A DNA stretch of 64,000 nt, taken from assembly GCF_004766125.1 (NCBI RefSeq), contig NZ_SJSA01000002.1, positions 620,001 to 684,000 of the forward strand. Direction: 5' to 3'. The stretch's first letter is position 1. Each line of letters opens with the position of its first letter. Below the pieces are notes generated by a model. The model was given only the letters and a program-made list of their open reading frames with translations, had not been told where the DNA came from and did no database searches. This document shows positions 30,308 to 49,388 of the stretch, one piece after another. The position numbers and the translations under genes are program-made. Source of the stretch: Duncaniella freteri. GTDB lineage: Bacteria > Bacteroidota > Bacteroidia > Bacteroidales > Muribaculaceae.

Positions 30308-30331
30308 ATATTTTTAATTTAATTAAACCAA

Positions 30332-31420: not shown

Positions 31421-31442
31421 TTATTATTGGGAATACATCCGT

Positions 31443-32552
31443 TTATAAAAATTCTATAAGTTTACTTGCAGAAGCCGACCATGTAAGTTCTGTTTTAAAG
31501 TATTCATACGCTCGTCTATTCCTTTCACGAATAGTATTGGGGTGCTTATAACAATTGGTTATGGCATTTGCCAGTTCTATAATATTACCTGGATCGACAA
31601 TCAATCCGCCTCCAGCTTCAACTTGCTCTTTTAAGCCACCCACATTACTTGCTATAACAGATCTCCCGGCACTGAATGACGCTGCAGCAACACCTGATTG
31701 AGATGCTTCCACATATGGCAAAATGGTCATATCTGACTCCGCAAAAAGCCTTACAATCTTATCTTCCGATATCCAATCATTGATAAATGTAACATTGGCG
31801 TTTTGTCTTATCAGATCTTTTTCACTACTTGTTATATCTCCATTCCCTGCAATCACAAGCCTAAGAGACGGCAATGTCTCTTTCACATGTTCCATAGCTT
31901 TGAGCAGGATTCCCAAACCTTTGTATGGGGTGATCCTTCCAAAAAACAATATTGTATTTTTAATCGTTGAGAAGTTCGGCAAATCTCCGTTTTTATTAAA
32001 ACAGAATCCGGCATGTGGTATAAAACACACTCGTTCCTGAGAGACATTATACATTTGAGCCACCTTATTTCTAAAGCTCTTTGTCAGAACAATGAATTTT
32101 GTACTTTTCTTCTTTATTTGCTCAAATATATTGTATTGTATCGGATTCTGCTCGCCAGGATGTGGATACAAATCATGAACTGTTGTCACAATATCTATTC
32201 CCTTGAAATGCTTGATAATCTTTCGCGCATTCAAACTCAACATTGGAATATATATCACATCAAGTCCCCATGACTTCAGATCATATACGCATCGCATATA
32301 TTCTCTATTTGGTAAAAAGCTTTTCAGAAATCCAAATTTGGATGAATATGTCGGTAAAAATACAATTCTCATCCCATTATTCTGAAAAAGATTTTCCCAA
32401 CGATCTCGATTCTCTATATCTTTTGCTATTACAGCAAATATCTCTAATCCTTTTTCAATCAAGGCTTGTGCCATTTCATAAGAATATGTGGCTCCACCTC
32501 CTTTTCGACCAAGATAAACAAGCCCGATTTTTCTATTTTTTGAGATTCCCAT
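31443..32552 (-). CDS. Glycosyltransferase family 4
   Basis: 369 residues. N-terminal domain with GRKGGGATYSYEMAQAL, mid-part TVHDLYPHPGEQN, donor domain with LFFGRITPYKGLGILLKAM, and VEASQSGVAAASFSAGRSVIASNVGG in place of the usual EX7E signature. It acts in the left capsule pathway with an unknown sugar. The low GC content is shared with its neighbours. Confidence 0.85.
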   Translation of the reverse strand: MGISKNRKIGLVYLGRKGGGATYSYEMAQALIEKGLEIFAVIAKDIENRDRWENLFQNNGMRIVFLPTYSSKFGFLKSFLPNREYMRCVYDLKSWGLDVIYIPMLSLNARKIIKHFKGIDIVTTVHDLYPHPGEQNPIQYNIFEQIKKKSTKFIVLTKSFRNKVAQMYNVSQERVCFIPHAGFCFNKNGDLPNFSTIKNTILFFGRITPYKGLGILLKAMEHVKETLPSLRLVIAGNGDITSSEKDLIRQNANVTFINDWISEDKIVRLFAESDMTILPYVEASQSGVAAASFSAGRSVIASNVGGLKEQVEAGGGLIVDPGNIIELANAITNCYKHPNTIRERNRRAYEYFKTELTWSASASKLIEFL

Positions 32553-32563
32553 ATTTTATATTA

Positions 32564-33661
32564 TCAAGCCATTGATGATAAGAAATAAGACATCTTGTCA
32601 CTGAGGGCATTGGTTTCATACTTTCTAAGGAATATGTTGCGAGCGTACCTGGCGCATTGGATTAACACTTCTGATGTTCGCATCCTATTTATCGCATCAA
32701 TAAACTCCTTAGCAGTATTGCATTGAGCACCTATCTGATTATAATCCACATCATATCCTTCAAAAGCTTCTTTCGAACCAATTATAGGACATCCATACAT
32801 CATTGCCTCAGCAGTCTTTGTCTTCATACCTCCTCCATGAAAAATCGGACTGATCACAATGTGGCATTGCTCATATACTTCTTCAAGATCCTCTACATAA
32901 CCGGAAACCTTTACACGAGCATTCCGAGCATCGTCATAAGACTGCGTGAAATGTTTATCCATGTTTTTACCAATAATTAGCAGCTCTACATTAGAGAGTT
33001 TTGAGAACACATTTTGAAGAAGCCACTCTAATCCATCTATGTTTGCAAAGAATGCCGACCCAACAAAAATCAATTTCAACATGATATTAGGATTATTGAA
33101 TCTGTCAGGACTAATTGACTTCAGATAAACATCCGACATCCCCAATGGTAATATTAGATCGGCAGTCCTATTATAATATCTTTTTAAAAGCATGTTGTCA
33201 CGCTGATTCATCGTTATAAGAGAATTACTGTTTTCTACAGCGTGTCGCTCATTTGATCTGACAACCAAATTTATGAACCTGTTTTTTAAAGACGGTGCGA
33301 TCTTGAGCTCCTCTTCCCCATATTGAATCTCTACATTATGAAAAAATGTCACAATTTTGATTTGATGGAATCTATTAGCTATTTTCTTAGCAAGCTTCCC
33401 TGATTTTGAGCTCCATAAAAACACAACGTCTACCGGCTCTTCGTCTAGTATTGAAAAGATTTCTTTAACCCGCTTATACCGTATACCTCCACAATAGCCC
33501 TCAAGTAGTCCTATAAATGTTTGTACTTTTGTTGTCAATGGTACTTCAAAAGTCTTTACTTCTGCCATTGACTGTTCAAGAAGCTCTCTATTCCTAATAT
33601 TTACTCGCTCAAGCCCAGCCTGTTGTTCCTGTGGTTTAGGATATATATATAAGACCTTCAT
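32564..33661 (-). CDS. Glycosyltransferase, GT-B fold (family 4-like)
   Basis: 365 residues opening MKVLYIYPKPQEQQAGLERVN. TFFHNVEIQYG lies in the middle and the C-terminal domain carries LIFVGSAFFANIDGLEWL and FHGGGMKTKTAEAMMYGCPI, the pattern of family 4 enzymes of the type that read HNVE. It is part of the left operon, 12 nt from each neighbour. Donor and acceptor are not identifiable. Confidence 0.8.
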   Translation of the reverse strand: MKVLYIYPKPQEQQAGLERVNIRNRELLEQSMAEVKTFEVPLTTKVQTFIGLLEGYCGGIRYKRVKEIFSILDEEPVDVVFLWSSKSGKLAKKIANRFHQIKIVTFFHNVEIQYGEEELKIAPSLKNRFINLVVRSNERHAVENSNSLITMNQRDNMLLKRYYNRTADLILPLGMSDVYLKSISPDRFNNPNIMLKLIFVGSAFFANIDGLEWLLQNVFSKLSNVELLIIGKNMDKHFTQSYDDARNARVKVSGYVEDLEEVYEQCHIVISPIFHGGGMKTKTAEAMMYGCPIIGSKEAFEGYDVDYNQIGAQCNTAKEFIDAINRMRTSEVLIQCARYARNIFLRKYETNALSDKMSYFLSSMA

Positions 33662-33672
33662 AAATATTTGAC

Positions 33673-34962
33673 TTAATGTTTTCGCAGATTTTCAAACTTG
33701 GATTTATAACCTAAAATATGGAGCTGATCTTCAGGCCGAGAATATCCTCGTAGGAATCTCAAAAACAAAAAGTATTGTGATGTACCGATAAGCCTATGAA
33801 GCATCCGAAATCCAGCATTAATTATCCTAACTTTATGCCCGACCTTAGGCACATCTGTTTTTTGAATTCTAACATTACTATCCCTCCTGACATTCAATAG
33901 CCTATTATTCTTTAACAATGTGTAGAATTGTGACTTTATGTCAAAAGGAGAGATCGATGATTGGATGTTTTCAGAATAAGCACGGTACAAACGTCTGTGA
34001 TATTGTTCTATAGGGATATTATTGTCAAATCTATTATAGGAATATTCGCTTTTAATAGTGACATCAAATAACTCTTGATTCGACCGAATGGCATCGGCAT
34101 AGACATTAAGAATCAGATTTATATCTTTATATTCACGAATGTCAGCTATGTTCTTCTGAAATATTATACCATCCTTCAATTTCGAATAATCATAACCTGA
34201 AAAATGCGTAAAAATTAATGGGAAAACCTCATTAGAACCATTATTTTCTCTGAGTGTCACAAAAGCAGCATCACCGTTCATCATAATTCTGCGCTCAAAA
34301 AAGTTCCATGGCGCGAGGTTACATCCTAAATTATTTGAGATTAAAAGTTCTGTCGAATCAAAAGAGGAAGGTATAAAATTCATCCATTTTTGATCAGTAT
34401 ATTCTCCTTTTTCAAAATCGACAAAGCATTGATCTCTCAGGCGTTCGCTCCACCATCTCAACATCTTGCGCACCTTTGGATTATCTTGCACCCCCATAAA
34501 CCCTAAATTGAATATTCCACATGACAACCATATGTTTTCAGGTGAATCAGTCTCCCCCAAACGAGGAATTGTAGTAATATGTGGTGTCAGTATGATTTGA
34601 TACCTGTCAAGACTCTCAAATATCGGTGCTATCGAACTGAAAAAATATATATCCGGATCAAGATAAATAACCTTCTCATATCCTTGGGAAAGAATATATA
34701 GTATAGAATCAGGCTTTATTGCCGTGCAGAATTCCGTCAAGTCATACTTGAATGCCATCTCATACCATTTCTTATTATCAATGCCTAATTCATCTTTGGC
34801 AAAAATGATATTTTCAGGCATATCTGATAGTTCTGATGATGGCTCATCAGCCACCACAATGAAAAAGTCCAAATCTGTGTAATATCTCTTTATAGACTTT
34901 TCAAGTATCATTGCCAAGCCGATATAATTCTTGGCGACAATTGTGAATGCACAGTTTGTCAT
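33673..34962 (-). CDS. Glycosyltransferase, GT-A fold with DPD motif (GT8-like)
   Basis: 429 residues. The N-terminal half opens MTNCAFTIVAKNYIGLAMIL and carries the metal-binding DxD as KVIYLDPDIYFFSS (residues 102-104). HFSGYD near 265 resembles the second metal-side histidine. The C-terminal third (about 300-429) is unassigned and basic. It differs from the GT-B enzymes around it, so the left repeat unit probably uses at least two transferase folds. The start overlaps the upstream gene by 4 nt. Confidence 0.78.
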   Translation of the reverse strand: MTNCAFTIVAKNYIGLAMILEKSIKRYYTDLDFFIVVADEPSSELSDMPENIIFAKDELGIDNKKWYEMAFKYDLTEFCTAIKPDSILYILSQGYEKVIYLDPDIYFFSSIAPIFESLDRYQIILTPHITTIPRLGETDSPENIWLSCGIFNLGFMGVQDNPKVRKMLRWWSERLRDQCFVDFEKGEYTDQKWMNFIPSSFDSTELLISNNLGCNLAPWNFFERRIMMNGDAAFVTLRENNGSNEVFPLIFTHFSGYDYSKLKDGIIFQKNIADIREYKDINLILNVYADAIRSNQELFDVTIKSEYSYNRFDNNIPIEQYHRRLYRAYSENIQSSISPFDIKSQFYTLLKNNRLLNVRRDSNVRIQKTDVPKVGHKVRIINAGFRMLHRLIGTSQYFLFLRFLRGYSRPEDQLHILGYKSKFENLRKH

Positions 34963-36113
34963 TTTTCCCGATTTTTTATGATCTTTTTTATTTTATCAGA
35001 TATAGTCACCACGAGTGAAGGCCAATTAAACACTTCATCCGACAGTTTAAATGCTTTAGGTATAGTGTTTTTTAGTCTACTGTCATCATCAATAAGTTTC
35101 TGAAGCTCATTCGACAATTGGGTTGAAGAATCAAATGCAATGAATTTACCTAATTCTTCATTATCAGTAATTTCTTTTGCTCCTGTAACCGGTGTTGTCA
35201 ATATATAATTACCAAAGGCGAGAGCTTCGCTATATACCTGTGCCATACATTCAAATGTGGATGTTAGGCAGAATATCTTAGCCCGGTTATACCATTCCCA
35301 AAGTTCTTTCTTATCATAAATAGGACCAGTGAACAAAACTTTTTCGGCAAGCCTTGGATTGTCCTTAAAATATTTATTGACATACGGCTCAAAATCATGT
35401 TCCACAGGTCCTATCAATACCACTTTATAATCCCGTAAATTACACTTTGCAACAGCATCCAACAACATTTGAGTGTTTTTCTGTTTACTCCCCAACCTTC
35501 CTACCGTGATAATCAGGTTCTCTTTTTTGTCATAACCTTTTCTAATCACATGCAAGTCTTGTCGCAACTCGGAGTCATGCCCATTTGGCATCCATTCCAC
35601 TACATTCTTTAAGTAATCGCCACAACACCCTGCTTTTATTTCATCATAATTATTCTTTGTCTCAACAGAAAGTATGTCAATGGACTTATATAACATGCCT
35701 TTTATCCAACCTTTTAAACCATTACCCAAGACAGGGACAGAATTCATATCAGCTTTTATATATACTATCCCTGTAGGATTAATTTTTTTATAGACCCAAG
35801 AGAAAACCAAGTTCCTTCGATTCATCCAAAAAAGCTGCAAGACATCTATTTTCTTAGCATTTTTTATGAGATACCAAAACATCTCTTTCTCACTCCAAAT
35901 AGTAGCTTCATATTTGCTTTTGGATTTTATTGGGATCATATTGACACCTCTATATACCCCTGAAAATTGCTTATTATGCTCTGCTTTTGGAAATACATAG
36001 TCAACATTCGCGTCAAGCATTCCTCCAAGATATTTTGACACCAAAAACATATCTTTCCCGACAATTCCTGAGTCAAGATAGTGAAAAAGCATCGTTATGT
36101 TGAGTGTTTTCAT
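34959..36113 (-). CDS. Glycosyltransferase family 4
   Basis: 384 residues with MLFHYLDSGIVGKDMFLVSK at the start, donor-domain ENLIITVGRLGSKQKNTQML and STFECMAQVYSEALAFGNYILTTPVTGA. The usual EX7E glutamates are present in this last segment (FEC...SEA). It overlaps both neighbours by 4 nt, so translation is coupled. AT-rich. Confidence 0.84.
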   Translation of the reverse strand: MKTLNITMLFHYLDSGIVGKDMFLVSKYLGGMLDANVDYVFPKAEHNKQFSGVYRGVNMIPIKSKSKYEATIWSEKEMFWYLIKNAKKIDVLQLFWMNRRNLVFSWVYKKINPTGIVYIKADMNSVPVLGNGLKGWIKGMLYKSIDILSVETKNNYDEIKAGCCGDYLKNVVEWMPNGHDSELRQDLHVIRKGYDKKENLIITVGRLGSKQKNTQMLLDAVAKCNLRDYKVVLIGPVEHDFEPYVNKYFKDNPRLAEKVLFTGPIYDKKELWEWYNRAKIFCLTSTFECMAQVYSEALAFGNYILTTPVTGAKEITDNEELGKFIAFDSSTQLSNELQKLIDDDSRLKNTIPKAFKLSDEVFNWPSLVVTISDKIKKIIKNREK

Positions 36114-36745
36114 TTTGATAATGATACTATTTTTATAGGATTCCCTACTGCTAACGAATATGGGGGTATATCCTTATTGACCACAGCATTTGCTCCGATT
36201 ACAGCTCCATCTGAAATTGTTATTCCAGGCAAGATTGTGACCTTATCACCAATCCATACATTATTACCTATTACAACAGGACCTTTTGAATAGAGTTTGC
36301 GTTGTGTTGGTTGGATATGCAATGTGCCAACACCTGTATCTCCATGACTGTTGTCTGTAATGGTTACCCATCGTCCGGTCAATGTTCCACGTCCTATTTT
36401 AATGGAATTTATGGCTGTTATGTGAACATATTCTCCTATTTGGACATCATTCCCAATTTCTATATTCGGAGAAAATGTGTCTCCAGCATAATTATCCCAT
36501 GCAGTCAATACTGAGTGGTGATCTATCTTGACATTTTTACCTATACTTATATATCTTTCTCCGACCAAGGTACATGGACGACATATTTGTGAAGAGGCAC
36601 CAAAATTAACGAACGATTTGCTAATCCATGCATTATAAAATTGATCAACTACTCGCTTCTGTACAACAGCTAATCTATATGGATATATGTAATGACATAT
36701 CCTGGCAAGCCATTTTACTATAGTGTATAATACATCATGAATCAT
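36110..36745 (-). CDS. Left-handed beta-helix acyltransferase (capsule O-acetyltransferase)
   Basis: About 211 residues from Met at 36745 (MIHDVLYTIV); the ATG at 36760 would overlap the upstream gene by 26 nt. Hexapeptide repeats span about 45-205: IGKNVKIDHH, IEIGNDVQIGEYVHI, IGRGTLTGRWVTITDNSH, and the end IGNNVWIGDKVTILPGITISDGAVIGANAVV. The DNSHG histidine is the likely catalytic base. It would acetylate a sugar of the left capsule. Confidence 0.85.
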   Translation of the reverse strand: MIHDVLYTIVKWLARICHYIYPYRLAVVQKRVVDQFYNAWISKSFVNFGASSQICRPCTLVGERYISIGKNVKIDHHSVLTAWDNYAGDTFSPNIEIGNDVQIGEYVHITAINSIKIGRGTLTGRWVTITDNSHGDTGVGTLHIQPTQRKLYSKGPVVIGNNVWIGDKVTILPGITISDGAVIGANAVVNKDIPPYSLAVGNPIKIVSLSK

Positions 36746-37427
36746 TGCCCTTACTCCCATATTTATTCATAAACTCATCAACACGTGAAAATTCTGTGTA
36801 ATGCTGTTCAATCCAGTTCCAGTCATTGTCCCACCATCTGATTCTCATTAAATGATCACGTCTGTCCTTTGGGAAACGATATCTAATTACTCTTGCAGGG
36901 ACACCCACAACTACAGAATATGGCTCAACATTTTTTGTCACTACTGCTCCTCCTCCAATAATTGCTCCATCCCCTATTTTTACATTATCCATTATTAGCA
37001 CATTGGATCCTATCCACACATCATTACCAATCTCAACAGTATATTTATTATACCGGTCTACATATTGTAGTGACTTGAACAGTTCCGGCTTTCCTTTATG
37101 AAATGAGTAGCCGCAGACTTTTGAAACATCTGAATAAAACGCAGGATGTGTTGATATATTTTCAGACACGGGATGCCGACCCAAACCGATCCTCACATTA
37201 TCTCCAATACTGCAATAACGACCAATTTTAGCCCAACAAATATGCGAATCAAACGAGATATAGGACCCTCTTCCTAATACCACAGACATTAAGAAAACAT
37301 TATCTGCAATCATATTAAATCCCTCAAATGTACAACCGGATATAAAGGCACGCCCATTAAATTTCACTTTATACCGATATCGAAGATATATCTTTTTTAG
37401 ATAATTCTTGAACGGAAATCTCATCAA
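36735..37427 (-). CDS. CatB-type (xenobiotic-like) acetyltransferase
   Basis: 230 residues of hexapeptide beta-helix. GRYCSIGDNVRIGLGRHP contains the probable catalytic histidine, then VEIGNDVWIGSNVLIMDNVKIGDGAIIGGG, and the XAT-type tail IRWWDNDWNWIEQHY. It would acetylate a capsule sugar. The stop overlaps the next gene by about 11 nt and the start overlaps the wzx stop as ATGA. Confidence 0.85.
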   Translation of the reverse strand: MMRFPFKNYLKKIYLRYRYKVKFNGRAFISGCTFEGFNMIADNVFLMSVVLGRGSYISFDSHICWAKIGRYCSIGDNVRIGLGRHPVSENISTHPAFYSDVSKVCGYSFHKGKPELFKSLQYVDRYNKYTVEIGNDVWIGSNVLIMDNVKIGDGAIIGGGAVVTKNVEPYSVVVGVPARVIRYRFPKDRRDHLMRIRWWDNDWNWIEQHYTEFSRVDEFMNKYGSKGNDS

Positions 37428-38866
37428 ATATTCATTTTAATAAATCGGTTGACAGGTAGCAACCTGAGAGTCGAGTTTTTCATAAGAATCTGTAACAATA
37501 TATATACACAAAACCCGATTGCCACATAGGATATGATCAGCAACCAGCCACTAAATAACTTTGACAGCCCCAATATTAAAGGATAGAATACGCCACATGA
37601 TATTATGGTTTTACATATGTCCTTTTTCGGAATAATCAACCTGACTGGCGTACGATATTTTACATATAAAAAAGAAATAATAAAAATTATAATCTCGGCT
37701 GTCAATGAAGAAATAGATGCCCCTATTGCACCAAGATGACGGATCATAAAAATATTTAATATAACGTTGCAAACGGAACCTGTAAGAATTCCTTTTAAAA
37801 AAAGCTTATCACAACCTAAGCCAATTAATATTTGCCCCCCTGTAATGTTATTGAATCCAATCACACATATCACTCCACTCATTATGATTAAAGGGATTAT
37901 AGAACCCTCAAAATTAGGACCAAAAAACAATGGCACAAACTGTGATGCCACACAAATTACCCCAATCATCATTGGAATCGACAGGAAAGATACTATAGAA
38001 AATGATTTTTGTAGCAAAATATCAATCTCTTTATAATTGCTGTTACTGGCATAATATGAGATACGAGGTATTGCAACTGCCGAAAGGCTTGTGACTATTG
38101 CTAAAAGAGACTTTGATAGATTATTTGCATTATTGTAATATCCCACTTCACTATAATCTGTCATAAATCCTAACATTATCGTGTCAAGCATGGAATAAAC
38201 CGATACAGCTAATGACGACGCAAAAAGTATACATAGAGAATTGATGTGCCTTTTCAGTTTTTGTATCCTGAACTTTGGCTTTATGCCTTCACGACACAGC
38301 ATTATATAATTCCAAATATCTCCACCTATGGTCCCTGACACTCCTATTATCACATATATGAGTAGATCTTGCTTTGTCCTAACAAACACAAACATACATA
38401 TAATAGAGATAAATCGTATAACGAGCACACGAATTGTTATATATTTGAACCGTTCCAATCCAGAAAAATACCAATCAACCCTTAATGGTGCCACATATAG
38501 AATAAATCCTGAAACTAAAAATATTATATTGTTTTGCGTAAGTTGTGGAATACAGAAAATTGTAAACACATACACAATGCTGATCATAACAGTTGTTACG
38601 ATCGAGATTGAATACATATCAGACACAAATTCAGAAAGATCCTCCTTTGACTCTCGGATTTTTGACACCTCTCTTACTCCATATACTGGTATCCCAAGAA
38701 GAGCAAATAATGCAAAATATCCAGAATATGTATTTGCAAAATTATACAATCCAACACCTGTCGGTTCAAGTATTCTGGATATATATGGTGCTGTGATCAA
38801 TGGGAATACAACCCTTGACACATTTAACAATATATTATACAGAAAATTACGTCTGATTGATACCAT
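37424..38866 (-). CDS. wzx: Capsule repeat-unit flippase Wzx (left operon)
   Basis: 480 residues with 12-14 membrane helices. The N-terminus RRNFLYNILLNVSRVVFPLI and PYISRILEPTGVGLYNFA are classic for the polysaccharide transporter (MATE-like) family. It moves lipid-linked repeat units across the inner membrane. It is the first gene after the left upxY, 77 nt away, with no further canonical promoter seen in that gap. Confidence 0.9.
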   Translation of the reverse strand: MVSIRRNFLYNILLNVSRVVFPLITAPYISRILEPTGVGLYNFANTYSGYFALFALLGIPVYGVREVSKIRESKEDLSEFVSDMYSISIVTTVMISIVYVFTIFCIPQLTQNNIIFLVSGFILYVAPLRVDWYFSGLERFKYITIRVLVIRFISIICMFVFVRTKQDLLIYVIIGVSGTIGGDIWNYIMLCREGIKPKFRIQKLKRHINSLCILFASSLAVSVYSMLDTIMLGFMTDYSEVGYYNNANNLSKSLLAIVTSLSAVAIPRISYYASNSNYKEIDILLQKSFSIVSFLSIPMMIGVICVASQFVPLFFGPNFEGSIIPLIIMSGVICVIGFNNITGGQILIGLGCDKLFLKGILTGSVCNVILNIFMIRHLGAIGASISSLTAEIIIFIISFLYVKYRTPVRLIIPKKDICKTIISCGVFYPLILGLSKLFSGWLLIISYVAIGFCVYILLQILMKNSTLRLLPVNRFIKMNI

Positions 38867-38943: not shown

Positions 38944-39531
38944 TCATACAGCGGCTTCAACATTCAGTCTGTCGATGCGGAGGCGGGCGCAGCCGAGAAC
39001 GGAGAGCTCTATCAGCAGCTCGCTGTCTCCGCCGGTGAGGTCGACGATCTCTCCCTCAAGGCCTCGGAGACCACCGCGGACGACTCGTACGCGGTCGCCG
39101 CGCCGAAATGCGCGCTCCTCTATGCTGACAGGGGTGTCGGAGTTCCCCAGGATGAAGCGTAGGGTCTGCATCTGGGGCTCTGGGATGACGGCAAGGCGGC
39201 CTGTGCCTGTGGCGGCGCGGTCGGTCATGAATCGCTTGATGAAAGGGTATGAGACTATCAGACGACGCTCCGGCTCGCTGCACCTTACGAAGACTACCGA
39301 GCGGATGACCACCTGTTCTGATCGTGCGCGCCTGCCGTTCTTCCAAACCTTCACCTGCTCCTGGGTGGCTACGTAAGATGTGTGACCTAAAGACGTGAGC
39401 TTATCGCGGACGCTTTTCTCGCTGTTATTATTTACTACAGCTACATACCACTTGGGAGAGGATACGCCTACGGCGTCGCCAACGCCTGGAAGCACTGCCG
39501 CAACGCTCGTGTCTTTCGATTCCGATGCCAT
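38944..39531 (-). CDS. upxY: UpxY-family transcription antiterminator, left copy
   Basis: 195 residues from the ATG at 39531 (MASESKD); a GTG further up (39546) is possible. A NusG N-terminal domain (about 25-125: KWYVAVVNNNSEKSVRDKL, VFVRCSEPERRLIVSYPF) is followed by a KOW-like domain (FRRGDRVRVVRGGLRGLEGE). UpxY proteins let RNA polymerase read through the leader of capsule operons. It is almost identical to the right copy; only the last residues differ (VEAAV here). In this assembly no promoter faces it. No upxZ follows. Confidence 0.92.
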   Translation of the reverse strand: MASESKDTSVAAVLPGVGDAVGVSSPKWYVAVVNNNSEKSVRDKLTSLGHTSYVATQEQVKVWKNGRRARSEQVVIRSVVFVRCSEPERRLIVSYPFIKRFMTDRAATGTGRLAVIPEPQMQTLRFILGNSDTPVSIEERAFRRGDRVRVVRGGLRGLEGEIVDLTGGDSELLIELSVLGCARLRIDRLNVEAAV

Positions 39532-39575
39532 CTGACAAAATAGCACTAAGTGATGTCAGTATCTCTTGCTTAGAG
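38960..39575. repeat. 616-bp inverted repeat, left arm
   Basis: Reverse complement of 39756-40371, with the same length, no gaps, and about ten substitutions counted by eye (about 98% identity). It covers nearly all of the left upxY plus 44 bp upstream. The inner edge holds the quasi-palindrome ATCTCT-TGCTT-AGAGAT (39561-39577); identity to the other arm stops at 39575. Confidence 0.95.
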
Positions 39576-39755
39576 ATGCGGATATCAGATAATAAATTGA
39601 TAGATAATTCATTGCTGCAAATACACACTGAAATCTTAAAACAATAGCCACCATTGTTATATCCGTGGTTTAACAATCCGACCAATTTTATTCACTAAAT
39701 TTGCCTCATATAAGGATTTTTGTTAATTTTGCATTTGATTTAAAAAAGTGATGCA
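39576..39755. promoter_or_regulatory. Putative invertible promoter spacer between two upxY copies
   Basis: 180 AT-rich bases between the two 616-bp arms. The only canonical promoter (39701-39731) faces right. No CAAAnnTA, the minus-strand -7 pattern, is found between the two start codons. An internal short palindrome AACAAT-N7-ATTGTT lies at 39640-39658. Inversion of this block would redirect transcription to the left operon; that it inverts is an inference. Confidence 0.7.
39701..39731 (+). promoter_or_regulatory. Capsule promoter facing the right operon
   Basis: TTG (39701-39703), a 20-nt gap, then TAATTTTG (39724-39731). Transcription would start near 39738 and give a leader of about 60 nt before the right upxY ATG. 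The leader can fold by pairing GCACTCTAAG with CTTAGTGC (39753-39789). Confidence 0.75.
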
Positions 39756-40371
39756 CTCTAAGCAAGAGATACTGGCATCACTTAGTGCTATTTTGTCAGA
39801 TGGCATCGGAATCGAAAGACACGAGCGTTGCGGCAGTGCTTCCAGGCGTTGGCGACGCCGTAGGCGTGTCCTCTCCCAAGTGGTATGTAGCTGTAGTAAA
39901 TAATAACAGCGAGAAAAGCGTTCGCGATAAGCTCACGTCTCTAGGTCACACATCTTACGTAGCCACCCAGGAGCAGGTGAAGGTTTGGAAGAACGGCAGG
40001 CGCGCACGATCAGAGCAGGTGGTCATCCGCTCGGTCGTCTTCGTAAGGTGCAGCGAGCCGGAGCGCCGTCTGATAGTCTCATACCCTTTCATCAAGCGAT
40101 TCATGACCGACCGCGCCGCCACAGGCACAGGCCGCCTTGCCGTCATCCCAGAGCCCCAGATGCAGACCCTACGCTTCATCCTGGGGAACTCCGATACCCC
40201 TGTCAGCATAGAGGAGCGCGCATTTCGGCGCGGCGACCGCGTACGAGTCGTCCGCGGTGGTCTCCGAGGCCTTGAGGGAGAGATCGTCGACCTCACCGGC
40301 GGAGACAGCGAGCTGCTGATAGAGCTCTCCGTGCTCGGCTGCGCCCGCCTCCGCATAGACAGACTGAATGT
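39756..40371. repeat. 616-bp inverted repeat, right arm
   Basis: Partner of 38960-39575. It begins in the leader of the right upxY and ends ten codons or fewer before its stop, where the two copies suddenly diverge. The sharp edges and equal length point to recent duplication or continuing gene conversion. Confidence 0.95.
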
Positions 40372-40393
40372 CGAGCCCTCATCAATGCTTTGA
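39800..40393 (+). CDS. upxY: UpxY-family transcription antiterminator, right copy
   Basis: 197 residues from the ATG at 39800; the frame also allows GTG at 39785. Same NGN and KOW domains as the left copy, and identical in protein sequence except for the tail (VEPSSML). In this assembly it lies directly behind the canonical promoter and should be the expressed copy. It would act on the right operon, beginning 147 nt downstream after a strong hairpin. No upxZ follows. Confidence 0.92.
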   Translation: MASESKDTSVAAVLPGVGDAVGVSSPKWYVAVVNNNSEKSVRDKLTSLGHTSYVATQEQVKVWKNGRRARSEQVVIRSVVFVRCSEPERRLIVSYPFIKRFMTDRAATGTGRLAVIPEPQMQTLRFILGNSDTPVSIEERAFRRGDRVRVVRGGLRGLEGEIVDLTGGDSELLIELSVLGCARLRIDRLNVEPSSML

Positions 40394-40540: not shown

Positions 40541-41248
40541 ATGATTGTCTCCAACCCAAAACAAAAGATCACTGCTGTCATCCCTATCCGACGGGGATCT
40601 CAGCGCGTAAAGGACAAGAACCTGCGCCCATTCGGCGACACATGCCTCATGGAGCTAAAGATCCGCACCCTGATGCAAGTGCCAGAGATTGATGAGATCA
40701 TCGTCAATACGAACAGTGAGGACGCCATCCGAATTGTTAACGAATGTTATGCAGTGGGGGGGGTAAAAACATACCGCAGGGAGGAGTATTACGCCTCGTC
40801 CGAATGTTCAGGCAGTGAATTCTTCCGCAATCTCGGTGAGGTCACTGACACGGATGTGTTCATGTATTGCCCCTGCACCTCTCCATTCGTAAAACCAGAA
40901 ACCATATCCCAGTGCATACGAGCCTATGCGGAACGTGGCGAAAACGACTGCGTATCGACAGTAAGCCAGATCAAGGAGTTCCTATGGCTTGACGGCAAGC
41001 CGTTGAACTATGATCCGTCCAACGCTCCCAATTCACAGGACCTGCCGGACATGGTGGCCCTCAATTTCGGTGTCACTGTCATCGGAAGGCAGGATCTGAT
41101 CAACAACCGCAATATAATAGGCAAGAACCCCAGATTTGTAGTGACCTCTGACATTGAGGCGATCGACATTGACACTCCATTGGATTTCTATATTGCCGAG
41201 CAGATATACCGAAAAACGGTGATAGAAAAGCTGGAGTTGCTGGAATAG
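40541..41248 (+). CDS. CMP-sugar synthetase (acylneuraminate cytidylyltransferase family), copy 1
   Basis: 235 residues. The nucleotide-binding IPIRRGSQRVKDKNLRPFGD, IIVNTNSEDAI and YCPCTSPFVKPETI place it with NeuA/KdsB-type enzymes that link CMP to acidic sugars such as nonulosonates. No nonulosonate synthase is encoded in the window, so the sugar is unknown. It contains a run of eight G at 40756-40763 (Val-Gly-Gly-Val codons) that could slip. It is the first structural gene of the right operon; composition is near the chromosomal average. Confidence 0.83.
   Translation: MIVSNPKQKITAVIPIRRGSQRVKDKNLRPFGDTCLMELKIRTLMQVPEIDEIIVNTNSEDAIRIVNECYAVGGVKTYRREEYYASSECSGSEFFRNLGEVTDTDVFMYCPCTSPFVKPETISQCIRAYAERGENDCVSTVSQIKEFLWLDGKPLNYDPSNAPNSQDLPDMVALNFGVTVIGRQDLINNRNIIGKNPRFVVTSDIEAIDIDTPLDFYIAEQIYRKTVIEKLELLE
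40756..40763 (+). repeat. G8 homopolymer inside a CMP-sugar synthetase gene
   Basis: Eight consecutive G bases spanning codons GTG GGG GGG GTA. Insertion or loss of one base would truncate the enzyme. Confidence 0.95.
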
Positions 41249-41313
41249 ACCGTTGCCTGCCGCTGCCGCGCCGATGCACTGTAATTGACCAGGACATAAC
41301 ATTAATGACTCAT

Positions 41314-42018
41314 ATGAAAACAATTACAGCGATCATCCCGGTAAGGGCAGGCAGCACACGCCTGAAAAACAAAAACGTGGCACCCTTTGCAGGCACAAAT
41401 CTACTGGTGAATAAAATCAACCAGCTGAAACAGGTGAAAGATATCACCAAGATAGTGGTATCGTCCGATTCCGACCTGATGCTGGAGATGGCAAAAGCAG
41501 CCGGAGCTGACACCCATAAGCGTGCGCCGGAGTACTGTGATGAAAAGACAAAGACCTTTGGGGAAGTGGTCCGTCATATTGCAGAGAGTGTCGACGGTGA
41601 CACCATACTGTGGGCAACATGCACATCGCCATTGGTGTTCCCAAAGGACTACAGAGAGGCTATCGAAGCATATTATCCGGCATTGGAACAGGGATTTGAC
41701 TCACTGATGAGTGTGGAGAGCTTCAAGCGTTACATCTGGAATGAGGATGGCCCGCTCAACTACGAGCTCGGCTTGAAGCACGTCCCAAGCCAGCAGTTGC
41801 CTACACTGTACTTCGTCACTGACGGCATCCTCATGGCTCCGCGTGAAAAGATGATCGAATGGGCATATTTCCATGGCAGGAATCCATACAAATTCGTGGT
41901 GGACAAGAGAACCGGATGTGACATCGACGACGGACTCGACCTGGCATGCGCCCGAGCCTGGCTCGACATGGACGAATCCGTCAGTCAGATAGACCCCTAC
42001 ATCATAGGTAAAAAATAA
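41314..42018 (+). CDS. CMP-sugar synthetase (acylneuraminate cytidylyltransferase family), copy 2
   Basis: About 234 residues from Met at 41314 (MKTITAIIPVRAGSTRLKNKN); another Met lies at 41305. Motifs match copy 1: VVSSDSDLML, WATCTSPLVFPKDY. The two differ widely in the middle, so this is an old paralogue rather than a recent duplicate. Two consecutive synthetases suggest either two acidic sugars in the right capsule or one dedicated to another ligand. wzx starts 10 nt downstream. Confidence 0.83.
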   Translation: MKTITAIIPVRAGSTRLKNKNVAPFAGTNLLVNKINQLKQVKDITKIVVSSDSDLMLEMAKAAGADTHKRAPEYCDEKTKTFGEVVRHIAESVDGDTILWATCTSPLVFPKDYREAIEAYYPALEQGFDSLMSVESFKRYIWNEDGPLNYELGLKHVPSQQLPTLYFVTDGILMAPREKMIEWAYFHGRNPYKFVVDKRTGCDIDDGLDLACARAWLDMDESVSQIDPYIIGKK

Positions 42019-42028
42019 GGATCTGTAA

Positions 42029-43327
42029 ATGTCTATAAACCGGATACTCGGTTCATCACTGGTGAGGAATTCCTTTGTTTATGTCGTATGTGACGGCATA
42101 AACAAGGCTATTCCATTCCTGCTTCTGCCATTTATCACCTACTATCTCACACCAGGCGACTATGGTGTGGTGACTAACTTCAATGTGTATGTCCAGATCC
42201 TCTCGGTATTCTGTTTTCTGTGCACAGCCGGGGCGTTGCCTGTCATGTTCAATAAGTTAGACAAGAGCGAGATCCGATCGTATGTCTCCAACATGATGCT
42301 ACTGAACACGGTTGTGACATTCGTATGCCTGATAATAAACATGTTTATATTCCGGTGGATCGACAGAGGCCTGAACATAAGCCCCACATTTCAAATGTAT
42401 GCCATTGTGGTGGTATGGTTCACAGGCATCACCAACATAAACATGCTTTTGTGGCGATGCGAGGAACGGCCTGTGGCATTCGGGGTCTACCAGATATCCC
42501 AGTCGGCAGTGAACGCAGCCACCACCGTAGTGTTCGTGATAATACTGCTTCTCGGCTGGCAAGGAAGGGTGTACAGCATGATGTGTTCCGTCATTGTGTT
42601 CGGCATCATCAGCCTCTACATCCTGTACAGACGCGGCTACCTTGAAGCGAGGATACGCAAAGAGTTCCTGGTGCAGACACTGTCCTTTGCAGTGCCCATA
42701 ATTCCGCATGCGCTTTCGTTCTGGTTCAGGGGCGGGGTCGAAAAGATCCTTCTCACAAACATGTGCGACCTCTCAGAAAACGGCCTTTATTCAGTGGCCC
42801 TTACATGGGGATCGGTGGTCATGATGTTCCTGACAGCATTCAACAACGCATATGCCCCATATCTCTATAAAAAGTTGGCGGCATTCGATAAAGCCCCCAA
42901 TGAGACCGTCCATCAACAGCACTCGTTGATAAGGCTCATCAGGCTATGCCTGTTAGGGACTGTGGTGTTCGTGGTCCTGTCATACCTCGTTTCGATAGTG
43001 ATGATAAGGTCCATCTATCCTGCCGACTATCTCGGGTCTCTGTCATTCCTCCCATGGGTAATGCTGGCACAGATGTTTCAGGGTGGATATCTTATGTTCG
43101 TGTGCTTCTCGCACTACACGTTCAGGACCAAGCCTCTCGGCATCATAACTTTCACGTGGAGCCTCATTGCCTGCGTGCTTGCATGGGCAGGCATCAGGCT
43201 GTTTGGTCCGGTGGGGGTCTCTATGGCTTCGGCATTCGTGAGTTTCGCCATATTCGTATCCGTTACGCTCCTTGCCGTCAGGGTATATCCCATGCCGTGG
43301 CGTCACCTGTTTTCATTCAAGCTATGA
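42029..43327 (+). CDS. wzx: Capsule repeat-unit flippase Wzx (right operon)
   Basis: 432 residues with about 12 membrane helices. The N-terminus GSSLVRNSFVYVVCDGINKAIPF and YLTPGDYGVVTNFNVYVQIL is typical of oligosaccharide flippases. It is clearly different from the left Wzx, which supports two separate polysaccharides. Its stop overlaps the next start as ATGA (43324-43327). Confidence 0.88.
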   Translation: MSINRILGSSLVRNSFVYVVCDGINKAIPFLLLPFITYYLTPGDYGVVTNFNVYVQILSVFCFLCTAGALPVMFNKLDKSEIRSYVSNMMLLNTVVTFVCLIINMFIFRWIDRGLNISPTFQMYAIVVVWFTGITNINMLLWRCEERPVAFGVYQISQSAVNAATTVVFVIILLLGWQGRVYSMMCSVIVFGIISLYILYRRGYLEARIRKEFLVQTLSFAVPIIPHALSFWFRGGVEKILLTNMCDLSENGLYSVALTWGSVVMMFLTAFNNAYAPYLYKKLAAFDKAPNETVHQQHSLIRLIRLCLLGTVVFVVLSYLVSIVMIRSIYPADYLGSLSFLPWVMLAQMFQGGYLMFVCFSHYTFRTKPLGIITFTWSLIACVLAWAGIRLFGPVGVSMASAFVSFAIFVSVTLLAVRVYPMPWRHLFSFKL

Positions 43328-44577
43328 CTAATAAAGAACGATACCGTCTCCTCCACAGCAAACTGACTGCGACGCATCGGGGCATAGTGCTCAACAAGGT
43401 GCTTTGCGCTAATTTGATGTGGAAAGCCGGAGGCAACACAGACCCATTCGGGACTGTCAGGTCCATCGCAAAACTCCTGTTCACATTCGATGTGACAGAA
43501 CTGAAAACTACGGAGCTCAAACCAGTCCTGACAGTGTTTGGGTTCTATCCGTTACGCAATGACCACAGAGAGCTCATGAGCACTGTGGCATCAAGGCTCG
43601 GCGAAGGCAACACATACATTGACACGAGCCGGTGGAGCGACCGGAAAATAAAGTTCTCACCCAGGAACATACTCAAGGGTCTGCGCACAGGTCTGTGCGG
43701 TATGAAAGGATGCGGGCTCTCACTGAAGGACAGACTCATACTGTCGTCTCAGGTCACATTCTACTGCAACACAATCGATGAGCTCCTTAAGGTCGACCTC
43801 TCGAACATAAGGAAGTTCCTATGCCTTGCCAACACCCTGAACCTTGAGAACATACTCACACAGCATTTGAGGAATCTCGGAGCGAAGACATACTCGCTGA
43901 TGGAAGGCACATATTTCGTACAGGGCGGGGACATCCCGATCAATGACATCCCATTTGAGAACCTGACCTCCCACATCCAGCTGTGCTGGGGGCAGTACTC
44001 CAAGGACGAGTTCATAAAATACGGATATGAGGAGGGTCGCATGGAAGTGGCAGGCTATCCCAAGAATGTCGAATGCAGGCCAATGAAGGCTGACAATCCC
44101 ATGCGCAGAGGGGTCGTCCTGCTGTCACAGTACATCATGGACAAGCAGAACCGCGATTTGATCCGAATGCTCGGCAGGTTCTCCGACCGGCAGGAATTCC
44201 ACCTTAAGCTTCATCCATCCCTTGACTACGACGAATATTCCAGACTGGCATCCGAGAACGGCATGCGGATAATCCCGAAGTCAACAACCGTAAATGAATG
44301 CATCGACAACACCGCGTTCGACTTTGCTATAGCCATAAACTCCACCACATATTACGAAGCACTGATGCGCGGCGTCCCATGCCTCCGATACTATGACGGC
44401 AACTACACACCCCTGGCCGGATACGACGACGAGTTCTCCACCCCAGAGCAATACTCCGGGCTAATACTCCGGATAAAGGACCTGCCGTTGGCTGACTACC
44501 AGACCGGAATCGACAAGGCACTGAGGTACGCTGTCGGACTGGGAATAGATGAGTACCATAGGATTATGCTTGAATAA
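43324..44577 (+). CDS. Sialyltransferase-like GT-B protein, candidate CMP-sugar transferase
   Basis: 417 residues from the ATG at 43324; the frame runs open upstream to 42946 inside wzx, which is rejected. I recognise no exact family, but three features recall bacterial sialyl/polysialyltransferases: LMEG (about 192-195) like their acidic-Gly motif, an HP motif in HLKLHPS (297-298), and a Ser/Thr motif with following Glu in INSTTYYEALMRGVP (340-346). Those enzymes use CMP-linked sugars, which fits the two CMP-sugar synthetases just upstream. Alternatives are a CDP-glycerol-type transferase or another surface carbohydrate enzyme. Confidence 0.6.
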   Translation: MTNKERYRLLHSKLTATHRGIVLNKVLCANLMWKAGGNTDPFGTVRSIAKLLFTFDVTELKTTELKPVLTVFGFYPLRNDHRELMSTVASRLGEGNTYIDTSRWSDRKIKFSPRNILKGLRTGLCGMKGCGLSLKDRLILSSQVTFYCNTIDELLKVDLSNIRKFLCLANTLNLENILTQHLRNLGAKTYSLMEGTYFVQGGDIPINDIPFENLTSHIQLCWGQYSKDEFIKYGYEEGRMEVAGYPKNVECRPMKADNPMRRGVVLLSQYIMDKQNRDLIRMLGRFSDRQEFHLKLHPSLDYDEYSRLASENGMRIIPKSTTVNECIDNTAFDFAIAINSTTYYEALMRGVPCLRYYDGNYTPLAGYDDEFSTPEQYSGLILRIKDLPLADYQTGIDKALRYAVGLGIDEYHRIMLE

Positions 44578-44583
44578 GATAAA

Positions 44584-45207
44584 ATGAGTAACATTATTTG
44601 CTCTATATTTTCATCCATATATAATGGATCTTTCATTCCTCATCTACGAGGCATATATTTTTCTTTATTCAATAAAGAATCTTCTGGGAAAACGATAATA
44701 TATCGACCGATAAGATTTACAAAGAAATTTATCACCCTTAAGGAAAATGTATCCATATTCTCGAATTGCAGAGTTGAAGGAATATCCCATTATGGATCTC
44801 AGAACTATATTCCATCTATAATTTTACACTCTGGTGTCTCTGTTCAACAGAATTGCCATATTACTTGTGCACAAAGAATTGAAATCGGATCAAATACAGC
44901 ATTGGCAAATAATGTTACAGTTACGGATATTGATCATCCATACACTGATATCAGCATTCCGATAGAGAGTCAAGATCTTATCGTAAAGCCAGTAAGAATA
45001 GGCAAAGATTGTAAAATATACAATAACGCTGTTATCCTTCAGGGGACTATTATTGGAGACCATTGTGTTGTGGGAGCAAACTCTGTTGTGAAAGGCATCT
45101 TTCCTGATTTCTCAATAATAGTCGGGGTGCCTGCCAGAATTGTAAAAAGATACGACTTTACAAAAAAACAATGGAGAAAAACATCTCCCAATGGAATATT
45201 TATATAA
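44584..45207 (+). CDS. Hexapeptide-repeat acetyltransferase 1 (right operon)
   Basis: 207 residues. Beta-helix repeats IEIGSNTALANNVTVTDIDHP (with the probable catalytic His) and VRIGKDCKIYNNAVILQGTIIGDHCVVG, then a tail IVKRYDFTKKQWRKTSPNG. The tail is shared with the next gene, so the two are paralogues, yet this copy is AT-rich while the next is GC-rich. It likely acetylates a capsule sugar. Confidence 0.83.
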   Translation: MSNIICSIFSSIYNGSFIPHLRGIYFSLFNKESSGKTIIYRPIRFTKKFITLKENVSIFSNCRVEGISHYGSQNYIPSIILHSGVSVQQNCHITCAQRIEIGSNTALANNVTVTDIDHPYTDISIPIESQDLIVKPVRIGKDCKIYNNAVILQGTIIGDHCVVGANSVVKGIFPDFSIIVGVPARIVKRYDFTKKQWRKTSPNGIFI

Positions 45208-45218
45208 TCTAAGTTGCA

Positions 45219-45824
45219 ATGTATAATTTAAATCAAATCCATCTTGGGATATATAAACGAATTATGTCCTTTAAATGGAAGTTCAGGCTGTCACATTTTG
45301 GTAATAATTCTCTGATACATAAACCATTGCAAATCATTGGCGGGGGGGGTATTTCAATCGGTTCGAATGTCATTATACAGTACAGGAGCTGGCTTGCGGC
45401 CGAACCCCTGACAGGTGCTCACGATTGCCGTCTTGAGATTCATGACAGCTGCATCATCGGTCACTTCAATGAGATCTATGCAACAAGATCCATAATAATA
45501 GAGAAAGACGTGCTGACCGCCGACCGGGTGTACATATCGGACAATCTTCACGGCTATGAGGACATAGGCACTCCCATACACCGGCAGCCTATCGTGCAGA
45601 ATGGCGACGGGGTGCGCATCGGAGAGGGATCATGGTTGGGGGTGGGAGTCTCAGTTCTCGGGGCAAACATCGGCAGGCATTGTGTCATCGGGGCGAATGC
45701 GGTTGTCACAAAGGACATCCCGGATTATTGCGTTGCAGCCGGCATACCGGCAAGAATAATAAAGAGATATGATTTCGATAGCAGGGAGTGGCGAAAGACC
45801 ACTCCTGACGGACATTTCAAATAG
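45219..45824 (+). CDS. Hexapeptide-repeat acetyltransferase 2 (right operon)
   Basis: 201 residues. IEIHDSCIIGHFNEIYATRSI is not typical, but VRIGEGSWLGVGVSVLGANIG and HCVIGANAVVTKDIP are standard hexapeptide repeats, and SDNLHGYED holds the probable catalytic His. The tail IIKRYDFDSREWRKTTPDG matches the preceding gene. An eight-G run at 45342-45349 (codons for Ile-Gly-Gly-Gly-Gly) could switch the gene. The first 110 bases are AT-rich and the rest GC-rich, suggesting a recombination joint in or near the G tract. Confidence 0.83.
   Translation: MYNLNQIHLGIYKRIMSFKWKFRLSHFGNNSLIHKPLQIIGGGGISIGSNVIIQYRSWLAAEPLTGAHDCRLEIHDSCIIGHFNEIYATRSIIIEKDVLTADRVYISDNLHGYEDIGTPIHRQPIVQNGDGVRIGEGSWLGVGVSVLGANIGRHCVIGANAVVTKDIPDYCVAAGIPARIIKRYDFDSREWRKTTPDGHFK
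45342..45349 (+). repeat. G8 homopolymer inside acetyltransferase 2
   Basis: Eight consecutive G bases in the 5' fifth of the gene. This is the second such run in the same operon. Confidence 0.95.
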
Positions 45825-45837
45825 GAAACAACCAGAT

Positions 45838-46980
45838 ATGAAGAATATACTTATAACCGGAGGAGCTGGGTTCATAGGCTCCAATGTGGCACTCAAGCTC
45901 ATTGAAAAGGGCTACTATGTAAGAGTTCTTGACAACCTCTCAAAGCAGATTCATGGGGACAATCCCGAGGAGACCTCCCCTCTTTACAGGTCGATAATCG
46001 GGAAGGTCGACTTCATCAGAGGCTCTGTCACATCACGTGAAGACTGGCTCAGGGCTCTCGATGGGATTGATACGGTGCTGCATCTGGCAGCAGAGACCGG
46101 CACCGGACAGTCGATGTATGATATTGAGAACTACGTTAACACCAATATCGGCGGCACAGCTATCATGCTCGACATCCTGACCAACGTCAGGACCCTGGAC
46201 GTCAAACGGGTAGTTGCCGCGGAGAGCAGGGCCATATACGGAGAGGGACGTTACTGGTCGCCCGACCTAAATTCATACGTATACCCCGACGAGCGCACAG
46301 ACGAGGATATGTCAAACGGCGATTTCGAGGTCAAGTTCAAGGGCTGTGACACACCGCTGGAGCTTGTGGCCACCACTGAGGATTCGGCTATCCATCCCAC
46401 AAGTGTGTATGGGATCACAAAACAGGTCCAGGGACAGCTTATACATCTCTGCTGCAAGGCGATAGGAATTGATGCGGTCACATTCCGGTATCAGAATGTC
46501 TACGGTCCTGGCCAGTCTTTGTCCAACCCCTACACCGGCATCCTCTCCATATTCTCCACTCGCATAAAGAATGGCAATGAGATCAATATATTCGAGGACG
46601 GACTTGAGACCAGGGACTTTGTGTACATCGATGATGTCGTCGACGCCACGATCCGAGGCATCGAAGTCCCCAGGGCAGCAGGCCATGTGTTCAATGTCGG
46701 GACTGGTGTAGCCACCGATGTGCTGACTGTTGCCAGGACGCTCATGGAGAGCTATGGGACAGAGGTCCCGCTCCGTGTGTCAGGCAATTACCGACTCGGC
46801 GACATCCGTCACAACTATGCTGACATCACCCTGGCCCGGGAGATACTTGGATTCCAGCCCAAGGTCGACTTCCCAACAGGCATCTCTCGATTCGCCTCAT
46901 GGGTAGACTCACAGAGTGTACAGGAGGACAGATACGATGAATCGATCAAAGAAATGAAAGATAAAGGACTGTATAAATGA
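45838..46980 (+). CDS. NAD-dependent epimerase, dTDP-rhamnose 4-epimerase-like
   Basis: About 380 residues from Met at 45838 (MKNILITGGAGFIGSN); an upstream Met at 45769 lies inside the preceding gene and is rejected. Extended SDR features are TGGAGFIGS, LDNLSKQIHG, AAESRAIYGEG and the catalytic TSVYGITKQVQ. The extra segment about 160-200 and SRAIYGEG recall WbiB-type dTDP-L-rhamnose 4-epimerases, which make 6-deoxy-L-talose; that is from memory. No dTDP-rhamnose genes are in the window. The stop overlaps the next start. Confidence 0.72.
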   Translation: MKNILITGGAGFIGSNVALKLIEKGYYVRVLDNLSKQIHGDNPEETSPLYRSIIGKVDFIRGSVTSREDWLRALDGIDTVLHLAAETGTGQSMYDIENYVNTNIGGTAIMLDILTNVRTLDVKRVVAAESRAIYGEGRYWSPDLNSYVYPDERTDEDMSNGDFEVKFKGCDTPLELVATTEDSAIHPTSVYGITKQVQGQLIHLCCKAIGIDAVTFRYQNVYGPGQSLSNPYTGILSIFSTRIKNGNEINIFEDGLETRDFVYIDDVVDATIRGIEVPRAAGHVFNVGTGVATDVLTVARTLMESYGTEVPLRVSGNYRLGDIRHNYADITLAREILGFQPKVDFPTGISRFASWVDSQSVQEDRYDESIKEMKDKGLYK

Positions 46981-48056
46981 CATCTATAAGTGGAAAGAGA
47001 ATACTGCTTGTAGTTCCAAAATTCGCACCATTAGATTCACAAATAATGAATGAATTAGAGATACAAGGAGCATATGTTGAGATCATTTATGATCAATGTC
47101 AAAAATTCAATCCTAATTTTATCAAATCATCTTTTAGAATCATACGAAAGTGCTATTATAAATTAAATAATTTAAATATAAAATATCACTCACAGTTTGA
47201 TCAATGGGATAAAGAATGGGATTATTTATTATGCATTAATGGTTGGTCTATAGATCCAATCCTATTAAAAAAAATAAAGACATTAAATCCAAACATCAAA
47301 TGTATATTATACTTATGGGATTCTTTGAAAACTTTTAGATTTAATTGTTTATTTCCATTCTTTGATAAAGTTTACACTTTTGATTATCAGGATTCCATCA
47401 AATATAATATTGATTATCTACCGTTGTTTTGGGTTGAAAACAAAAATGGCAACCATTCTGAGATAAAGTACGATCTTAGCTTTATTGGGAAGCTCCATAG
47501 TGATAGATATGAGGTCATTAAGAAAATTGAAAAATATTGTAGAAATAATGGGATTAATTATTATTTCAAAATTATCATCACAAACCGAGGTTCAAACATA
47601 ATTGAGTATATAAAACATCTATTATTTAAATTAAAAAATCGAGGACAAATTGATTATCGATATGATCTTTTGTATGGAAAAATTATTGATCCAATAATTT
47701 CATTCAATTATGTAGATCCAATAGTAGCACAAAACATTATTAATGCATCTCGATGTATTATAGATATTGAAATTCCAGAACAAAGTGGTTTGACTAATCG
47801 AACAATTCAAGGATTGGGCTATCAGAAAAAAATTATCACAACAAATTTTAAAATTAAAAATGATGTCTTATTTCAGAATAATCCAAATATAATTGTCATT
47901 GATCGATATAATCCAATTATCAATACTGAAGCAATATCACAAAACTATAGCAGTGATAAACCAAATAATACAATATTGGAAAAATTAAGAATTGATAATT
48001 GGATAAAGATTATATTAAATATGAAGAAAATTAATGATATGATTGTATTCAAATAG
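46977..48056 (+). CDS. Unrecognised, probable glycosyltransferase of the right operon
   Basis: 359 residues, strongly AT-rich and Ile/Asn/Lys-rich. I do not recognise the family firmly. It has a Rossmann-like start (KRILLVVPKFAPLD), a central CILYLWDSLKTFRFNCLFPFFDKVYTFD, YDLSFIGKLHSDRY, and ending IPEQSGLTNRTIQGLGYQKKIITTN. The last part resembles the donor-side loop of CgeB-like/GT-B transferases. Position between an epimerase and Wzy supports a sugar transfer role. The sudden drop in GC exactly at the ATGA junction with the upstream gene indicates separate origin. Confidence 0.55.
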   Translation: MTSISGKRILLVVPKFAPLDSQIMNELEIQGAYVEIIYDQCQKFNPNFIKSSFRIIRKCYYKLNNLNIKYHSQFDQWDKEWDYLLCINGWSIDPILLKKIKTLNPNIKCILYLWDSLKTFRFNCLFPFFDKVYTFDYQDSIKYNIDYLPLFWVENKNGNHSEIKYDLSFIGKLHSDRYEVIKKIEKYCRNNGINYYFKIIITNRGSNIIEYIKHLLFKLKNRGQIDYRYDLLYGKIIDPIISFNYVDPIVAQNIINASRCIIDIEIPEQSGLTNRTIQGLGYQKKIITTNFKIKNDVLFQNNPNIIVIDRYNPIINTEAISQNYSSDKPNNTILEKLRIDNWIKIILNMKKINDMIVFK

Positions 48057-48113
48057 ATAAAACCAATTAATCTATTCTATGTTCAAAATCATTCCTCAGT
48101 TGTAAAGGAATAT

Positions 48114-49325: not shown

Positions 49326-49388
49326 TTTAACTGCTTCTATTATTATAGATTAGGGTCTCTACCCAATTATACAGTATATTGAAAAGAC

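Follow-up and report, generated by a model that had tools for sequence, protein, structure and literature searches.

A short invertible promoter segment between head-to-head upxY genes likely moves transcription between two polysaccharide clusters

Variation of surface polysaccharides in gut Bacteroidales bears on phage sensitivity (PMC8375218). At the PSA-PSH loci of Bacteroides fragilis (Mpi/FinA, UpxY/UpxZ), a short stretch with the promoter is bounded by inverted repeats and precedes the polysaccharide operon, with upxY near the operon start and one global invertase (PMC12632263, PMC3090145, PMC8375218). Bacteroidales invertons that lie beside an invertase gene have also been described, as the ICE and IP-ARG types (PMC8748976), and the tyrosine recombinase Tsr19 is placed at the large capsule (PMC3090145). 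In such invertons the invertase adjoins invertible promoters with similar repeats, and upxY is often the first gene after the promoter (PMC8748976, PMC3090145).

The locus described here lies in a 64-kb window, the whole stretch of DNA that was analysed. It resembles the PSA-PSH loci in having a promoter segment between inverted repeats before upxY and a polysaccharide operon, but it has one promoter between two operons in place of the one on/off promoter per operon described for them, and its repeats include two upxY genes. The promoters of the ICE, IP-ARG and Tsr19 invertons are described as serving one side, and no selector for two operons is reported in those accounts. In Campylobacter fetus, an invertible promoter segment between divergent sapA-type genes with conserved 5' parts chooses the surface protein; that system concerns S-layer proteins, has a larger segment and is RecA-dependent, whereas the window carries polysaccharide operons and antiterminators. 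Inversion in the Hin flagellar switch of Salmonella likewise selects between two surface antigens, the second by way of a repressor, whereas here one promoter would be aimed at either operon. Our literature search returned no account of one invertible promoter for two divergent capsule operons, although Jiang et al. 2019 could contain one. The coats of gut Bacteroidales usually vary through several independent on/off promoters, and a selector would build the choice into the geometry of the DNA.

Two upxY genes stand head to head and point outward (Table 1), as the original prediction had it, and both match PF02357. upxY-R, which may start at GTG 39785 or at ATG 39800, is the first gene of a polysaccharide operon and its NusG-type domain scores 112.4 bits with NCBIfam NF033644 (UpxY) against a cut-off of 100; upxY-L is assigned to the family through PF02357 and its identity to upxY-R. 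The two proteins are the same over 196 codons, across which the genes show 10 synonymous differences and no nonsynonymous one, a pattern with a chance of about 1e-6 under a simple site count with random hits. Both copies look kept, judging by these substitutions, although part of this pattern may come from recent gene conversion. A NusG-family search of the genome pointed to three places, these being the two upxY genes and one stronger match that is presumably nusG. UpxZ was sought in 27 genomes and matched in none, and the control was silent as well.

Each gene sits in one arm of a long inverted repeat, composed of a short leader and nearly all of the upxY. Comparison within the window gives arms of 619 nt with 11 mismatches (~98% alike). 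The repeats had been predicted as 616 bp at 38960-39575 and 39756-40371, which was right as to inverted repeats but a few bases short in length and at the outer ends; the 180-bp spacer between them was found as proposed. GC content is 29% in the spacer and 58% in the left arm. A DNA search with the spacer in 61 genomes gave, in 60 relatives, pieces of 24-43 bp and no long match, so there was no other genome's DNA to set against this locus.

Table 1 Features of the head-to-head upxY locus and its flanking operons, in window coordinates
Feature	Position	Strand	Basis
Left polysaccharide operon	28257..38866	-	Pfam, TM estimate
Left operon EpsG-family candidate polymerase	30332-31420	-	Pfam, TM estimate
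Left operon wzx	37424-38866	-	Pfam
upxY-L, NusG-like antiterminator gene, head of left operon	38944..39546	-	PF02357 + KOW
Left arm, leader and most of upxY	38957..39575	-	repeat comparison
Left site GTATCTCTTGCTTAGAG, predicted crossover	39559..39575	+	sequence, site-class survey
Spacer, 180 bp, invertible	39576..39755	.	repeat comparison; inverted form in P0001
Predicted promoter TTTG-n20-TAATTTTG, rightward in the present assembly	39700..39731	+	motif scan
Right arm of long inverted repeat	39756..40374	+	repeat comparison
Right site, 17 letters of GTATCTCTTGCTTAGAG inverted	39756..39772	-	sequence
upxY-R, UpxY family antiterminator, head of right operon	39785..40393	+	PF02357, NCBIfam NF033644
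Right polysaccharide operon	40541..51223	+	Pfam, NCBIfam, TM estimate
Right operon wzx	42029-43327	+	Pfam/NCBIfam
Right operon candidate polymerase	48114-49325	+	about 8 predicted TM segments

A predicted promoter lies between the inverted repeats. It is the single full promoter in the spacer, one base longer than the 39701-39731 first proposed, and its call rests on the -33/-7 consensus of Bacteroidota. A second perfect -7 at 39696-39703, without a -33, also faces right. No leftward TAnnTTTG occurs within the spacer, which agrees with the prediction that a leftward -7 is absent there. The strict motif turns up 5 times when both strands of the window are scanned; of 20000 mononucleotide-shuffled spacers, 23 carried it on a given strand. 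When the spacer is inverted in silico, the promoter comes to lie 54 nt from the GTG and 69 nt from the ATG of the left upxY, exactly as it now does for the right one, because both arms have the same leader.

The inner arm ends carry short near-palindromes, ATCTCTTgcttAGAG, which the original prediction did not mention. These sites of ~17 bp are probably the working repeats, and the 600-bp arms are probably a duplicated leader plus upxY; the long arms were demoted as crossover site in favour of the short ones. Exact matches to the site GTATCTCTTNNNNAGAG lie at 9 places in the genome. When 2 mismatches are tolerated, the pattern has 59 and 73 matches and a reversed-pattern control has 43 and 66; the counts hardly exceed the control, so weight is given to exact and paired sites only. 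Same-centre inverted pairs 172-202 bp apart, with up to 2 mismatches allowed, occur in six of seven other regions of the same genome around sites or near matches, and the centre varies between most regions; a repeat finder with a minimum of 16 nt listed the pair in only three of these six.

Inverted pairs of the same class, 183-202 bp apart, were observed in that genome at C1:930690, C1:2072146 and C2:759223 (L075, L076 and L078). An inverton of this class lies upstream of a gene for a 461-aa protein (L074, C1:86000-95000, locus positions 3520-4905, + strand) with a UpxY-like domain at residues 279-453 that scores 54.6 bits (cut-off 100) and was overlooked by the NusG-family search. Its 278-aa N-terminal part has no Pfam match, and two later open reading frames were read as nucleotidyltransferase-like.

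The site class also recurs at upxY genes of relatives. A relative of upxY at an E value of 1e-15 or better is present in 86 of 397 family genomes, with 97 matches in total. The upstream DNA of 81 matches was read and 16 weaker matches were left out; with three weaker same-genus hits the set came to 84 hits in 82 loci. Of these hits, 74 have at least 330 bp upstream, and the 10 shorter ones were left out. Paired sites with matching central six bases lie upstream of 26 of the 74, a number that includes our own locus twice, G120 twice and two near-identical G009 contigs once each; the other 48 are without paired sites. Mononucleotide shuffles yielded no pair in 1440 trials, in a survey that omitted two near-identical G377 loci, the addition of which gives the 74 hits and leaves the 26 unchanged. 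At the 23 single-upxY loci with a pair, counting the short L147 and both G009 contigs, a -7 near the site points toward upxY in 7, away in 14 and both ways in 1, and none was found in 1. The distance from -7 to site is 14-17 bp in the 21 one-sided loci as against 25 bp in the window, and a -33 match by the rule used occurs in only 10 of the 21. On the strength of these paired sites and -7 boxes, the switch in the window is most likely one of a widespread class of upxY invertons.

Inversion of the segment, which had been proposed from the repeats, is well supported across strains by comparison of sequences. One line of evidence is a public protein record, P0001, from a cluster of 175 member sequences, whose 964-bp contig shows the right side of the locus only. 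A comparison of its body with the right UpxY, which takes in the right-flank tail EPSSML, finds 196 of 197 residues identical. The record also connects the right upxY with the end of the spacer that in the window adjoins the left arm. In its N-terminal extension, 22 of 25 spacer-encoded residues fit the frame formed by an inverted spacer before the right upxY. The open frame fits only this construct: the native right arrangement gives 0 of 25 and a stop, and the native left copy, which does have the extension, is interrupted by a stop in that frame and ends in a different tail. For P0001 to be a left copy, the stop would have had to disappear and the right-flank tail to be acquired as well, which is unlikely. 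Extension, tail and open frame together point to an inverted form of the segment elsewhere, so that both orientations are seen across strains, P0001 against the window, rather than in one culture; the segment would presumably flip within one population too.

The same site class is found inverted between two single-upxY loci from two species of one genus, L135 and L136. Their flanks are collinear and the spacer aligns in inverted orientation, with 145 of 184 bases alike and a score of 87 against 6 for the direct orientation (best of 100 shuffles, 11); ~100 bp beside the left site differ in length. This pair bears on a different route to inversion, RecA-type homologous recombination between the 619-bp arms, under which the short sites would be relics. 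The arms are indeed long and 98% alike, the sap system of C. fetus works in this way, and the window yielded no recombinase gene. However, paired sites with matching cores occur at single upxY genes that have no long arms, and it is at such loci that the L135/L136 spacer is inverted, and we consider recombination between the arms an unlikely explanation.

For site-specific inversion at the short sites, the original prediction had named recombinases such as Mpi, known to flip Bacteroides capsule promoters, and this part calls for correction. Mpi is a serine recombinase in the accounts of PSA-PSH cited above, whereas PF00239 had no match in the window's genome (the control was positive in 10 of 14 genomes). 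The sites are like those beside a tyrosine recombinase, which together with the missing PF00239 makes an Mpi-type serine invertase unlikely. Tyrosine-recombinase matches number 39 in the genome, 38 of them above the cut-off and none inside the window. One of 400 aa adjoins same-class sites at C1:2092357 and C2:881846. A relative (67%) lies at C2:277330, and C1:88862, close to the inverton at C1:89145, gave a match to a short fragment. Relatives of this recombinase, with identities of 42-76%, lie directly upstream of upxY in 9 of the 82 upxY-bearing loci, and five of these nine have paired sites; this is not significant (Fisher p = 0.15), so the survey alone does not tie the recombinase to the site class and the invertase step is inferred. 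The likely invertase is a tyrosine recombinase that would act in trans, given the placement of this family beside such sites.

The two regions with the adjoining recombinase (L077, C1:2088000-2097000, and L080, C2:879000-888000) have 4.5 kb in common at 96%. Both contain the tyrosine recombinase beside several same-class sites, and in L077 TerD-like open reading frames, identified by reading, come next, which suggests that these regions have invertible promoters as well.

Both sides of the switch lead into a Wzx/Wzy-type operon, as predicted: each contains a Wzx and a candidate polymerase, and the operons differ. The left one also encodes two hexapeptide acyltransferases, glycosyltransferases and an epimerase (Pfam). 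The right one encodes two cytidylyltransferases, acyltransferases, an epimerase, a WaaS/CpsH-family transferase and glycosyltransferases, and its candidate polymerase has no Pfam or NCBIfam match.

Given the 180-bp promoter segment, the short inverted sites and the head-to-head upxY genes, we are fairly confident that a flip would move transcription between the two clusters. A tyrosine recombinase of the family found at C1:2092357, C2:881846 and C2:277330 would act in trans at the short sites, and the promoter in the flipped segment would serve the upxY that it faces together with that operon. UpxY from the switched-on side would let polymerase run through its own operon, and the opposite operon, left promoterless, would fall silent. 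The usual on/off capsule switch would in this way become a choice between two coats, and because of this geometry we infer exclusive expression of one operon.

Exclusive expression would be lost if only the right operon were switched and the left had its own promoter, the locus then being an on/off switch beside an independent operon. Two leftward promoter-like strings speak for this, a strict one at 37939, absent from the original prediction, and a relaxed one at 38769; with further relaxed strings at 31268 and 31158 they leave room for some independent transcription within the left operon. The first two, however, fall within wzx, so that a transcript from either would lack the beginning of that gene. 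In addition, the left and right upxY encode the same residues over their common part, and a second genome (G120, below) has the same layout. We regard a switch of the right operon alone as improbable, a shade more so than recombination between the arms.

A close head-to-head upxY pair on one contig was found in two genomes, that of the window and G120, from another genus. The G120 arms are 706 bp and 96.3% alike with the same site class at their inner ends, enclose one promoter, TTTG-n20-TATTTTTG, that faces left, and are flanked on either side by a flippase-like gene. Between its two upxY copies there are 20 synonymous and 6 nonsynonymous differences. Because the contig is 5.9 kb long and has repeated ends, less reliance can be placed on its outer parts. 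Those ends (L126, G120:C49, 1-138 and 5763-5902) are inverted copies of each other (98%) with a glycosyltransferase-like frame, the left end being chimeric-looking. That the head-to-head pair is an artefact of assembly or strain mixing of a repeated upxY, as the short G120 contig with its repeated ends and chimeric-looking end gene might hint, is very hard to credit, as the window arms differ at 11 positions, of which the 10 in compared codons are all synonymous, the sequences flanking the arms are unlike each other and the window's genome assembly consists of 5 contigs. The either/or reading first proposed for the window gains support from P0001, from the L135/L136 inversion and from the G120 layout with its opposite promoter.

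A third pair, broken by assembly, probably exists in G073, where two contigs both start in upxY (98.7% alike over 236 bp) and continue into two different polysaccharide operons, each of which has an EpsG-family gene; the head-to-head order is unseen there. Since repeats of this kind may drop out of short-read assemblies, the number of head-to-head pairs is likely a lower bound. Synteny comparison matched upxY in 13 of 14 fetched stretches, the fourteenth, L130, containing a upxY end, and several sugar genes were matched in G073 (L129, L130). No conserved housekeeping flank was seen in the 14 stretches, which gave one weak ileS-like match.

On balance we lean somewhat towards an obligate capsule selector, which two lineages of the family at the least, and probably three, would have made out of an on/off switch by placing an inverted duplicate of leader and upxY around a single inverton, and in which exactly one polysaccharide would always be on. 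If so, the cell could change its coat at the locus but not drop it, the locus could not leave the cell bare, and no cross-locus inhibitor would be needed. Two near-identical UpxY proteins on a common leader would also make a natural system for UpxY specificity.

A scan of genome contigs with one protein gave 1 distant match, and a viral contig search gave no relative. Among the 49 relatives listed for upxY, the only one under an organism name, at 70% identity, comes from an uncultured Duncaniella (Muribaculaceae, Bacteroidales), from which the host is likely a gut bacterium. The tail of the left UpxY, LNVEAAV (window 38944-38958), recurs in a public protein, P0002, that is 79% identical, hinting that the left upxY keeps the older 3' end and that the right copy is derived.
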